Assembly (NCBI GenBank): GCA_945878115.1 | Contig: CAMDVD010000004.1 | Coordinates: 1 to 64,000 of the forward strand | Direction of reading: 5' to 3' | Origin: Chitinophaga pinensis | Lineage (GTDB): Bacteria; Bacteroidota; Bacteroidia; Chitinophagales; Chitinophagaceae | Length of the DNA: 64,000 nucleotides | Shown: piece after piece, positions 30,931 to 44,295 of the stretch | Layout of the letters: every line of letters starts with the position of its first letter | Position numbering within the stretch: position 1 is the stretch's first letter | Translations under genes and position numbers: made by a program | Notes under the pieces: generated by a model | What the model saw: the letters and a program-made list of their open reading frames with translations, nothing else | The model's database searches: none | Told to the model about the DNA's origin: nothing

Positions 30931-31377
30931 ATAAGCACCTACACACAAATATTATATCAAATTGTTTTTAGTACAAAATATCGTGCGCACAGCCTAATCA
31001 AAGAGCATCGAGCAGAATTGTTTCAACACATGTGGGGACTACTCAAAAATAAAAGATGTCATCTCTACAGAATCAATGGTGTAGAAGATCATCTACATCT
31101 TCTTACCCACTTACATCCTTCCATTTCATTGGCTGATTTGGTGAAGGACCTAAAACTTTCTTCATCAAAATTGATTAAAGAAAAAAACTTATTCCCCCAA
31201 TTTAATGGTTGGCAAGATGGATATGGCGCATTTACGTATTCAATAGGTGCTAAAAATAATTTAATCCAATACATAAAAAATCAGGAAGAGCATCATAAAA
31301 CAAAAACTTTTCTCGATGAATACATAGAGCTGCTAAAAGAACATCAAATTGAATTCGATGAAAAGTTTTTACTGTAA
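30931..31377 (+). CDS. RAYT-type (IS200-like, Y1 HUH) transposase without a standard start codon
   Basis: The reading frame from 30931 encodes about 149 residues that align over full length with REP-associated tyrosine transposases: '(I)STYTQILYQIVFSTKYR', the metal-binding HUH motif in 'VEDHLHLL', and the nucleophile Tyr in 'IQYIKNQEEHH'. The codon expected to be ATG is ATA (30931-30933), preceded by ATT and ATC and then a TAA. The first accepted alternative is TTG at 31018, which would remove the first beta strand. It is either a start-codon mutation, and so inactive, or a rare ATA/ATT start. Tandem repeats follow downstream. Its homologue at 43244 is intact. Confidence 0.75.
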   Translation: MSTYTQILYQIVFSTKYRAHSLIKEHRAELFQHMWGLLKNKRCHLYRINGVEDHLHLLTHLHPSISLADLVKDLKLSSSKLIKEKNLFPQFNGWQDGYGAFTYSIGAKNNLIQYIKNQEEHHKTKTFLDEYIELLKEHQIEFDEKFLL

Positions 31378-31410
31378 AACATTCAACACTTATAGAGTAG
31401 CGATGCCTCA

Positions 31411-31742
31411 CTGCACTTCATGCATCACTACATTTCTTTCATCACTGCATTTCATACAGTGTTATTCAAATTCAATCCCTTCAGGATTTTTCATGCTACT
31501 TTGCTAGACATTGGTTCTATTCGCTGCACTTCATGCATCACTGCTTTTCTTGCATCATTGCATTTCATACATCACTGCATTTCATACAGTGTTATTCAAA
31601 TTCAATCCCTTCAGGATTTTTCATGCTACTTTGCTAGACAGTGGTTCTATTCGCTGCATTTCATGCATCACTGCATTTCTTTCAACATTGCATTTCATAC
31701 AGTGTTATTCAAATTCAATCCCTTCAGGATTTTTCATGCAAA
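31411..31742. repeat. Tandem repeat, three units of 113/130 bp
   Basis: Units begin at 31411, 31524 and 31654. Each holds CTGCA(C/T)TTCATGCATCACT and then a shared 45-bp block (starting at 31451, 31581 and 31694) containing the short hairpin AATCC-CTTCA-GGATT. Unit 2 carries an extra 17 bases made by a local duplication; unit 3 lacks the tail. It lies directly downstream of the RAYT gene. Open frames across it are a by-product of the periodicity. Confidence 0.85.
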
Positions 31743-31823
31743 GCACAATTTTACATGCTGACAACAATCCATCGTAATCTTAGAGCAAATAACAAAAGAT
31801 AAAATAAATAATAAGCAATACAA

Positions 31824-43150: not shown

Positions 43151-43197
43151 GTGATGGGCTGCACCCATCACTAGATGTGACGGGCTGCACCCATCAC
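43151..43197. repeat. Two adjacent hairpins, GTGATGGG-CTGCA-CCCATCAC
   Basis: The first hairpin (43151-43171) has a perfect 8-bp stem; the second (43177-43197) is the same with one mismatch (GTGACGGG). They lie 3' of the second RAYT gene and are followed at 43211-43221 by the CCAC-TTC-GTGG hairpin shared with the 5' side. Confidence 0.8.
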
Positions 43198-43243
43198 TAA
43201 ATCTATTTCACCACTTCGTGGCTTAAACAAAATAGGTTTAATA

Positions 43244-43696
43244 CTAATCCCATACATACTTCTCATTATATTCCACATTATATTTTTCAAGAATCAAACG
43301 GTACTCTTCTTGAAATGAAATTTTAGAATGATGTGCATGTTGATTGGCGATGTAATGACTTACTCTATTTATATCTGTAGGTTTTACAGAGAATGTACCA
43401 TAGCCATCTTGCCAGTAAAATTCTTTGTAGGCATCTCCTTTTGTTTTTATCCATTTTAATGAATGTGATTTTGCCACTTCTAATAATTTCATTAAAGCTA
43501 TTTTCCGAGAAAGCATACATAGGATATGAATATGGTCAGTATAACCACCTATTTTTATCAGATGACATTCTATGCTTTTACAAATAGTAGCCAAGTAGGC
43601 ATGCAGTTCCGCTTCCACAGGAGGATGAATAAATTCTTGACGATATTTCGTGCTGAACACAATGTGGATGTAATTTTTAACTAGTGATTGTCCCAT
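43244..43696 (-). CDS. RAYT-type (IS200-like, Y1 HUH) transposase, intact
   Basis: 150 residues, full length, with an ATG start. 'VKNYIHIVFSTKYRQEF' opens the fold, HUH is in 'YTDHIHILCML' and the catalytic Tyr is in 'VSHYIANQHAHH'; the conserved 'FYWQDGYGTFSV' lies between. RAYT enzymes nick single-stranded hairpins of the REP type and are thought to move or maintain those repeats. Hairpin repeats flank the gene on both sides (43151-43221 and 43733-44178), with no second gene and no classical insertion-sequence ends, which fits a RAYT rather than an ordinary IS200. Confidence 0.85.
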   Translation of the reverse strand: MGQSLVKNYIHIVFSTKYRQEFIHPPVEAELHAYLATICKSIECHLIKIGGYTDHIHILCMLSRKIALMKLLEVAKSHSLKWIKTKGDAYKEFYWQDGYGTFSVKPTDINRVSHYIANQHAHHSKISFQEEYRLILEKYNVEYNEKYVWD

Positions 43697-43732
43697 AACA
43701 TGATGAATTGAATTTAATTAATAATAATTAGA

Positions 43733-43782
43733 GCGATGGGCGTTGCCGCATCGCTGATGTATGTCGCCACTTCGTGGCTTAA
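43733..43782. repeat. RAYT-flanking composite hairpin unit 1
   Basis: GCGATG (43733-43738) pairs with CATCGC (43749-43754) around GGC-GTT-GCC. Then TGATGTATGTC is followed by the GCCAC-TTC-GTGGC hairpin (43766-43778) and TTAA. Unit 2 is at 44086-44134. Confidence 0.75.
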
Positions 43783-43807
43783 CAGTATTTCTAGAAAATA
43801 TCTCAGT

Positions 43808-43990
43808 CCCGAAGGGATGACATATGCGAACATAGGGTGAAGCCCTTTGAAAAGTGAGGCTCTGAAATATCGAAGTCCCGAAGGGATGACATATATCAAC
43901 ATAGGGTGAAGCCCTTTGAAAAGTGAGGCTCTGAAATAGAAAAGTCCCGAAGGGATGACATATACTAACATAGGGCGAAGCCCTATGAGA
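43808..43990. repeat. Tandem RAYT-flanking repeat, three units of about 68 bp
   Basis: GTCCCGAAGGGATGACATAT starts at 43808, 43875 and 43944 (periods 67 and 69). Each unit continues with AACATAGGG(T/C)GAAGCCCT. Both TCCC-GAA-GGGA and AGGG…CCCT can fold. A fourth copy stands alone at 44159. Confidence 0.88.
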
Positions 43991-44085
43991 AAAGACAATC
44001 TATAACAACCAAAAAATATCAAATACCCCATAACAAAATTTTTTATCAAAAAACTAAACTTAGAAGAAACTTAATTCGCTTCAAC

Positions 44086-44134
44086 GCGAGGGGCTTTACC
44101 GCCTCGCTGATGTATGTCGCCACTTCGTGGCTTA
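44086..44134. repeat. RAYT-flanking composite hairpin unit 2
   Basis: GCGAGG (44086-44091) pairs with CCTCGC (44102-44107), followed by the same TGATGTATGTC and GCCAC-TTC-GTGGC blocks as unit 1. One stem pair is G-C here and T-A in unit 1. Confidence 0.75.
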
Positions 44135-44158
44135 ATAGATTAGTTCCATGGAAGCGAA

Positions 44159-44203
44159 GTCCCGAAGGGATGACATATACCAACATAGGGCAAAGCCCTA
44201 TGA
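44159..44203. repeat. Fourth GTCCCGAAGGGATGACATAT copy
   Basis: Same 20-bp core as at 43808, followed by AACATAGGGCAAAGCCCT. It directly follows unit 2, repeating the order of unit 1 plus core. Confidence 0.85.
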
Positions 44204-44295
44204 GAAAAAACAATCTATAACAACAAAAAAATATCAAATAACCCATAAAATAATAATTTATCAAAAAACAAAACTTAGAAGAAACCTTCCCTCCA

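Follow-up and report, generated by a model that had tools for sequence, protein, structure and literature searches.

The window analysed here, the first 64,000 nucleotides of contig CAMDVD010000004.1 of Chitinophaga pinensis, contains a Y1 transposase gene (tnpA) set in a field of short palindromes. The gene lies on the minus strand at 43244–43696, encodes 150 aa and matches the Y1_Tnp profile (E 2.4e-23), in agreement with a sequence-only reading of this DNA that had placed an intact transposase amid hairpins. Its neighbours, judged by eye from the translations, are a TonB-type receptor gene and an NfuA-like gene. The hairpin field consists of seven copies of a two-hairpin unit of 45–47 nt, three on the plus and four on the minus strand, and one extra lone hairpin 1. 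Each unit runs from hairpin 1 through a linker of 11–12 nt ending in ATNTC to a 5-bp hairpin 2 with a TTC/GAA triloop, followed by a T, as in GCGAGGGGCTTTACCGCCTCGC / TGATGTATGTC / GCCACTTCGTGGC / T on the plus strand and CATAGGGCTTCGCCCTATG / TTAGTATATGTC / ATCCCTTCGGGAC / T on the minus strand. Six of the seven elements read ATGTC before hairpin 2 and one reads ATTTC.

The lone hairpin 1, GTGATGGG-CTGCA-CCCATCAC (43151–43171, plus strand), is not followed by a hairpin 2, and element 1 (43177–43223, plus) lies on the 3′ side of the gene. On the 5′ side, element 2 (43733–43779, plus) is followed by elements 3 (43805–43849), 4 (43874–43918) and 5 (43943–43987), all on the minus strand and in tandem with a 69-nt period, and then by elements 6 (44086–44132, plus) and 7 (44158–44202, minus). 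A 129-nt direct repeat (43942–44070, plus strand, 92% identical to 44157–44285) carries elements 5 and 7 and spacer, which indicates that the field grew via duplication. The two copies of this repeat comprise the repeat unit and spacer toward the NfuA-like gene, and a few nucleotides from the 3′ end of that gene (ATTCGCTTC) have apparently been copied within them.

The sequence-only reading had sorted the field into several kinds of repeat, and its counts are borne out. Two hairpins of the form GTGATGGG-CTGCA-CCCATCAC are present (43151–43171 exactly, 43177–43197 with one mismatch; shuffle mean 0.00), as are three of the GCCAC-TTC-GTGGC type (two exact and one ACCAC; 0.03 expected), two GCGAxG…CxTCGC hairpins with T-A in one and G-C in the other (43733–43754 and 44086–44107), and four identical copies of TCCC-GAA-GGGA-TGACATAT (at 43807, 43876, 43945 and 44160; 0.01 expected), with chance expectations that refer to all 64 kb and tolerate ≤3 mismatches. 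The recurring order of hairpins on the gene's 5′ side was also described correctly. Overlooked were the partners: a second hairpin, CATAGGGYRAAGCCCTWTG (four copies), accompanies each TCCCGAAGGGA hairpin, and a GTGGC hairpin accompanies each GCGA hairpin and one GTGA hairpin at a distance of 11–12 nt. All four types thus turn out to be half-units of a single bipartite element, which occurs in both orientations, and the supposed several repeats reduce to this one two-hairpin element, already in Rfam as the orphan family Acido-Lenti-1 (RF01687).

Judged by its motifs and length, the window gene belongs to TnpA-Y1 subclass 1.2. The protein contains DHIH, WQDGYG and YIANQHAHH, with H55/H57 as the HUH residues, Y115 as the putative catalytic tyrosine, and Q119 and H122-H123; positions H55, H57, W95, Q96, Y115, Q119, H122 and H123 are invariant in 38 sequences. 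The accessible text of Quentin et al. (2018; PMC6006769) characterises subclass 1.2 by HUH DH[IV]H, WQ, Y---Q--HH, a length of ~148 aa, low copy number and occurrence in Bacteroidetes, all of which are shared here (one window-type gene and three subclass 1.2 genes in this genome). That text lists subclass 1.2 without repetitive extragenic palindromes (REPs) and describes it without hairpins at its ends, whereas here a dense, conserved two-hairpin element flanks the genes.

The locus had been taken for the known arrangement of a REP-associated tyrosine transposase (RAYT) with its REPs. A Y1 transposase within its own dispersed repeats is what we find, but the protein is not a canonical class 2 RAYT, which requires Y---NP where the window protein has Y---Q--HH. 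In common with class 2 REP/RAYT systems, as presented in the accessible parts of PMC6006769 and PMC3733652, palindromes lie on both sides of a Y1 gene and are dispersed between genes (seven at the locus, 43 in the genome), and the repeat type goes with the transposase clade. Different from those systems are the bipartite element, ATNNC ahead of the triloop hairpin, and the lack of Y---NP and GT[AG]G.

The element was mapped across genomes with a covariance model, R1, made from 42 elements of other genomes, the window and its sister being excluded. Of 55 elements found, the two of the sister (L108) were omitted to give an alignment of 53, and 11 of other lengths were then omitted to give alignment A2, in which elements had been selected for a perfect hairpin 1 of ≥7 bp and for ≥4/5 pairs in hairpin 2; this choice inflates the pair counts of A2, which we leave out of the evidence. 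Pairing-unbiased tests were a count of the pattern AT..C N5 TTC N5 T and a count of hairpin 1 upstream of it, both given below. R1 recovers all seven window elements at E<1e-6 (7.9e-7 for element 1, matched at 43178–43223, and 1.4e-10, 1.2e-11, 2.3e-12, 1.8e-13, 2.9e-10 and 2.7e-13 for elements 2 to 7) and has 43 matches in this genome, 36 of them away from the gene's locus. Nineteen stretches of this genome contain 30 elements, 29 of which fall outside open reading frames (ORFs) of ≥120 aa. Exact mapping of GTCCCGAAGGGA gave four matches, all in the window, as if the repeats were purely local; the 43 R1 copies overturned that idea. Across 99 genomes (this one and 98 relatives), R1 elements occur in 8 of the 9 that have the window gene type (≥49% identity, two of the nine partial) and in 4 of the 90 that lack it (Fisher p 2.5e-8, which, like the Fisher value below, is too small because related genomes are not independent).

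In an AlphaFold2 model (mean predicted local distance difference test score 82.7), the window TnpA has as its top Foldseek match IS608 TnpA (2vjv; E 6.9e-9, TM-score 0.63 by query length), with the REP-bound RAYT 4er8 ranking below it (E 7.8e-5). IS608 TnpA being the nearest solved structure, and the score against NCBIfam NF033573 transpos_IS200 being 64.5 bits for a cut-off of 55, the gene might be part of an ordinary IS200/IS605 insertion sequence (IS) of subclass 1.1 with subterminal hairpins. This is hardly credible, given a single copy of the window gene type in the genome, many elements per flank in place of one left end (LE) and one right end (RE), 36 of 43 genome elements away from the locus, and a gene found at the same place in two species. 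Membership of subclass 1.1, which has W[TS], Y[IV]ENQ and many near-identical copies, was rejected on the WQ and Y---Q--HH motifs and the single gene copy. The likeness to the subclass 1.1 proteins IS608 and ISDra2 TnpA lies in the fold and the HUH/Y residues; the difference is that no LE/RE insertion sequence is seen here and the gene is not multi-copy. The ratio of non-synonymous to synonymous rates (dN/dS) is 0.04–0.12 in seven of eight pairs of related tnpA genes; tnpA is a low-copy gene under purifying selection and not a self-moving IS. Its closest named relative, 95% identical, comes from a metagenome-assembled genome (MAG) labelled 'Bacteroidetes bacterium', and plasmid records contribute only two matches to the window protein. 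Proteins 68–74% identical to it are encoded by cultured environmental species, among them Arcicella rosea (L148) and Foetidibacter luteolus (L121).

An Rfam scan of the field aligned RF01687 end to end with five of the seven elements: element 5 (34.8 bits, model positions 1–46 of 46), element 7 (32.5), element 6 (26.9), element 2 (26.1) and element 4 (20.8 bits, E 0.054, the weakest), the gathering cut-off being 37 bits. Two copies elsewhere in this genome pass the cut-off (38.7 and 37.2 bits). The RF01687 consensus, CCUAGCgCUgACGcGCUAGG / CUAauuUAUgcC / GUgCCUUCGGcAC / U, has the layout and linker length of our element: an 8-bp hairpin, a 12-nt linker UAU..C, a 5-bp UUC hairpin and a 3′ U. 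Among 79 loci of the window's clade, scanned up to 3 kb out, ten have RF01687 at or above the cut-off (16 matches, all 26–514 nt from the gene). From other clades of subclass 1.2, 20 loci were scanned, and none has such a match. The likeness to RF01687 is one of layout from end to end, of copies above the cut-off in this genome and of adjacency to the gene in those ten clade loci.

Rfam files RF01687 as 'Gene; sRNA' (small RNA), with no function given. In the accessible text of Weinberg et al. (2010; PMC2864571), Acido-Lenti-1 is a probable RNA, not cis-regulatory, of Acidobacteria and Lentisphaerae, and the description there has no transposase link, in which it differs from our element. The accessible parts of a 2026 paper state that little is known about its function (PMC13298647), and those of a 2023 Vibrio paper report copies in one strain (PMC10059132). 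Our literature search, mostly without subscription journals, found no paper tying RF01687 to a transposase, and a search for the hairpin strings found none. The accessible text of PMC13298647 treats copies that lie downstream of protease genes in Tannerella forsythia as possible regulators; on the reading proposed here they may be REPs. Three genes 68–69% identical to the window's (L131, L139 and L143) come from Methyloglobulus and Methylococcaceae MAGs, outside Bacteroidota, and two of them (L131 and L143) have RF01687 beside the gene, by transfer between phyla or bin contamination.

Hairpins are enriched around homologous genes in general. Homologues at E≤1e-10 occur in 42 of the 99 genomes, and 67 loci (of 76 matching genes, nine weak or partial ones being left out) have 2.43 hairpins per 500 nt, compared with 0.36 after shuffling and 0.52 in 132 control windows; 50 of the 67 beat the best of ten shuffles. 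At 80 named loci, which represent the window's own clade (63–95% identity), the flanks contain 3.44 hairpins per 500 nt versus 0.46 shuffled and 0.41 in 232 control windows, 71 loci beat the best of ten shuffles, and 64 have hairpins on both sides. The pattern AT..C N5 TTC N5 T, in which pairing is not required, has 284 sites in the flanks versus 16.8 after shuffling. Of these sites, 173 are paired at 5/5 positions and 100 at 4/5, with ten distinct fully paired stems. Pairing recovered by a pairing-free pattern, in ten different stems, amounts to compensatory change without selection for pairing. Hairpin 1 ends 5–25 nt upstream in 113 of 227 tagged elements, against 14 of 227 in the control (one single-base shuffle of each upstream stretch), and 82 of the 113 are spaced at 11–12 nt. 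A clear hairpin 1 is thus lacking for roughly half of the tagged hairpins. By side and orientation relative to the gene, the triloop hairpins fall into classes of 79, 70, 63 and 55.

When 267 hairpins were oriented by their triloop, the foot had A at −5 (83%), T at −4 (88%) and C at −1 (79%), with T after the hairpin in 90%, and TTAC, TATC, TTGC, TTTC and TGTC were among the commonest tags. The class 2 foot GT[AG]G was ruled out, GTAG and GTGG being outside the 30 commonest tags. The accessible text of Di Nocera et al. (2013; PMC3733652) describes CGTC/TGTC-tagged REPs, Bacteroidetes included, that 'apparently lack a dedicated transposase'. Their tag is often TGTC, which the window elements share in part, but they have an 8–9 bp stem, a 4–5 nt loop and a CCA tail in that text, where hairpin 2 has 5 bp, 3 nt and T. 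The TGTC tag and the lack of a known transposase made membership of that family attractive, but the misfit of stem, loop and tail makes it doubtful.

The type of repeat follows the TnpA tree. On a tree of 142 proteins (63 from the 67 loci and 79 of the 80 named ones; L155 has an internal stop and four others gave no usable ORF), the repeat label changes 27 times versus 52.0 after shuffling, and none of 200 shuffles is as low, a statistic that is inflated by related rows, with identical proteins counted in two sets (L023/L115, L022/L108 and L025/L152). Tetraloop hairpins occur in 11 of 12 rows of one starred clade, in three scattered rows and in none of 88 rows of the window's clade. A clade of four loci (L081, L082, L084 and L085) has one hairpin each, which is chance level, and of 30 loci that belong to other clades but come from RF01687-bearing genomes, R1 matches two.

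In 395 Bacteroidota genomes, RF01687 at E≤0.001 occurs in 79 (36 above the cut-off), compared with none of 14 control genomes, and the gene profile at E≤1e-40 in 58. Motif and gene type occur together in 31 genomes, gene only in 27, motif only in 48 and neither in 289 (Fisher p 4.4e-10). Where the gene is closest to the window's (~170 bits or more), 22 of 29 genomes have the motif. Among the matches listed, which cover 21 of the 31 genomes with both (none was listed for the other 10), the nearest motif lies 36–621 nt from the gene in ten genomes of several families; uniform placement expects 0.17 of the 21 genomes to have a motif within 1.1 kb. G369, G394, G435 and G256 have the motif on both sides of the gene. 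The sequence-only reading had asked whether the repeats are equally abundant in relatives that lack the gene: the split of 8/9 against 4/90 speaks for the link, whereas 26 of the 395 genomes keep the motif with no family match at E≤1e-15.

Mispairs and loops bear on the question of which strand folds. Across 220 distinct elements, the mispairs of hairpin 2 are 58 A-C, 7 G-T and 9 others when read on the TTC strand, which is the annotated one; read on the opposite strand, the 58 A-C pairs are G-T wobbles. When scored with DNA parameters, 174 of 214 elements are more stable as the GAA strand and 36 as the TTC strand, a count that is not independent of the wobble pairs. On the opposite strand, 207 of 220 elements have a GNA triloop (mainly GAA, GTA and GCA), under a search pattern that admitted no loops but TNC or TTT on the annotated strand. 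Triloops of the GNA form have unusual stability in DNA. Over the first seven pairs of hairpin 1 the bias is absent (13 A-C, 11 G-T); of 102 eighth pairs, 50 are C-A and 43 C-G. We infer at moderate confidence that it is the GAA strand, opposite to Rfam's annotation, that folds.

These data bear on the possibility that the family is a genuine structured RNA that acts, for example, as a regulator or 3′ stabiliser, and beside which the transposase merely inserted or evolved. Apart from the Rfam type, a 'y' for RNA in the scoring of the accessible text of Weinberg et al. (2010; PMC2864571), the 26 genomes with the motif and no detected gene, and the intergenic position of the elements, as for elements of 3′ untranslated regions, are in its favour. 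We nonetheless hold it to be unlikely, because triloop hairpins are similarly frequent in all four side and orientation classes, array copy number varies, motif–gene distances are far under chance, the repeat type tracks the TnpA clade, and the non-Watson-Crick pairs of hairpin 2 favour G-T on the strand opposite the annotated RNA.

Alternatively, the elements could be decayed or neutral palindromes multiplied by slippage, with the gene as a bystander without a present role. Slippage would account neither for a two-hairpin layout kept across the phylum with compensatory stem changes, nor for purifying selection on the gene in 7/8 pairs, nor for the adjacency of gene and element in 10/21 genomes of several families among the matches listed. 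It does agree with visible tandem growth (the 69- and 129-nt repeats and copy changes) and with the persistence of repeats in some genomes without a detected gene. On balance we consider it quite improbable.

We consider it quite likely that the locus is a REPtron-like unit, that is, a subclass 1.2 HUH/Y1 TnpA with a cognate two-hairpin REP that is the same as RF01687. The reading is built on the architecture of the element (which we propose to define as 45–47 nt with an 11–12 nt linker ending in ATNNC, ATNTC in the window), its clade-specific association with the gene, its dispersal, its placement between genes and the identity of its layout with RF01687. No description of a REPtron-like unit of this kind was found in the literature searched.

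Several observations, besides the non-independence of related genomes behind the Fisher values, weigh against this reading. R1 elements occur without the gene type in G005 (13), G026 (21), G086 (18) and G071 (2), and G043, with a partial gene, has none. The best window copy scores 34.8 bits against the RF01687 cut-off of 37, 69 of 79 clade loci have no match at the cut-off, and nine of 80 named loci have no excess of hairpins. Across the 395 genomes, gene only (27) and motif only (48) are both common, and 7 of the 29 genomes with the closest gene type lack the motif. Of the 48 motif-only genomes, 22 have a weaker profile match and 26 have none at E≤1e-15; 17 of these 26 are in genus g127, of which other genomes (G261, G277 and G407) have the gene. 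The 26 genomes imply that the repeats persist after the gene is lost, spread ahead of it, or serve some further function. Thirteen of the 19 stretches with R1 elements align with element-bearing stretches of the sister species G013, and the differences inspected between the two are changes in the number of tandem copies. Nor was an empty site seen: at the two further places looked up in G013, those of the L212 and L216 elements, an element is present as well. The dN/dS between the window gene and its G013 orthologue is 0.56, a value that comes from only three synonymous and seven non-synonymous changes.

If the locus is a REPtron-like unit, its working may be sketched as follows. We infer that TnpA binds and nicks the element and that the element is mobile, as we do the identity of the folded strand. 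The element would fold in single-stranded DNA, such as the lagging-strand template; TnpA would bind the hairpins by shape, with the bases of the linker and foot as a guide, nick through Y115 and then rejoin, whereby copies may spread or arrays expand.

Further Y1 genes of this genome have repeats of their own. A second subclass 1.2 gene lies on the plus strand of the window at 30940–31284 (Y1_Tnp match), and a different repeat lies downstream of it within 30940–31775: three copies of ~130 nt at 31403, 31533 and 31646, all of which contain AATCC-CTTCA-GGATT. A third gene of subclass 1.2 (L005; G000:C65:1-3121) is flanked on one side by three ATGTCATCCCTACGGGAT-type repeats and on the opposite side by 13 in inverted orientation, spaced at ~50 nt. 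The ATGTCATCCCTACGGGAT-type repeat has 73 copies in the genome at ≤2 mismatches, four window copies included, and 33 in G013, where no such gene is found. A first association test with this C65-type repeat (ATGTCATCCCTNCGGGA, ≤2 mismatches) spoke against a strict link between gene and repeat: besides the 73 copies here and the 33 in G013, which is without a C65-type gene, there are 14 in G018 and 15 in G083, with no gene match in either. Synteny with G013 seems to be broken at C65-type arrays (L091 and L100 versus L188, L191 and L194), the left and right flanks matching different G013 contigs, through rearrangement or misassembly.

Inverted palindromic repeats also surround at least five (L007, L008, L009, L010 and L012) of this genome's seven other Y1 genes. 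At L008, L010 and L012, neighbouring stretches of 206, 43 and 185 nt are directly duplicated on both sides, which may be the footprint of insertion. Beside R1 elements, at L212:1204-1280 and L216:1106-1244, are two more repeat families with many dispersed copies in G013 (60 and 42 matches, R1-related and main ones included).

The unit appears to be of a known kind, a Y1 transposase with cognate REPs, with a different transposase subclass, a bipartite element and a possible explanation for an orphan Rfam family as its new features. Acido-Lenti-1 is likely to be not primarily an RNA but a single-stranded DNA substrate, a REP maintained and spread by a widespread, domesticated subclass 1.2 clade. 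If this is true, an orphan 'RNA' family of 2010 gains a testable function and subclass 1.2 TnpA gains a candidate substrate. Two hairpins separated by a fixed 12-nt linker predict that the protein would contact both, perhaps as a dimer like IS608 TnpA. Screens for GT[AG]G-tagged hairpins would overlook this class of REP, and searches for structured RNA can pick up elements that act at the level of DNA.

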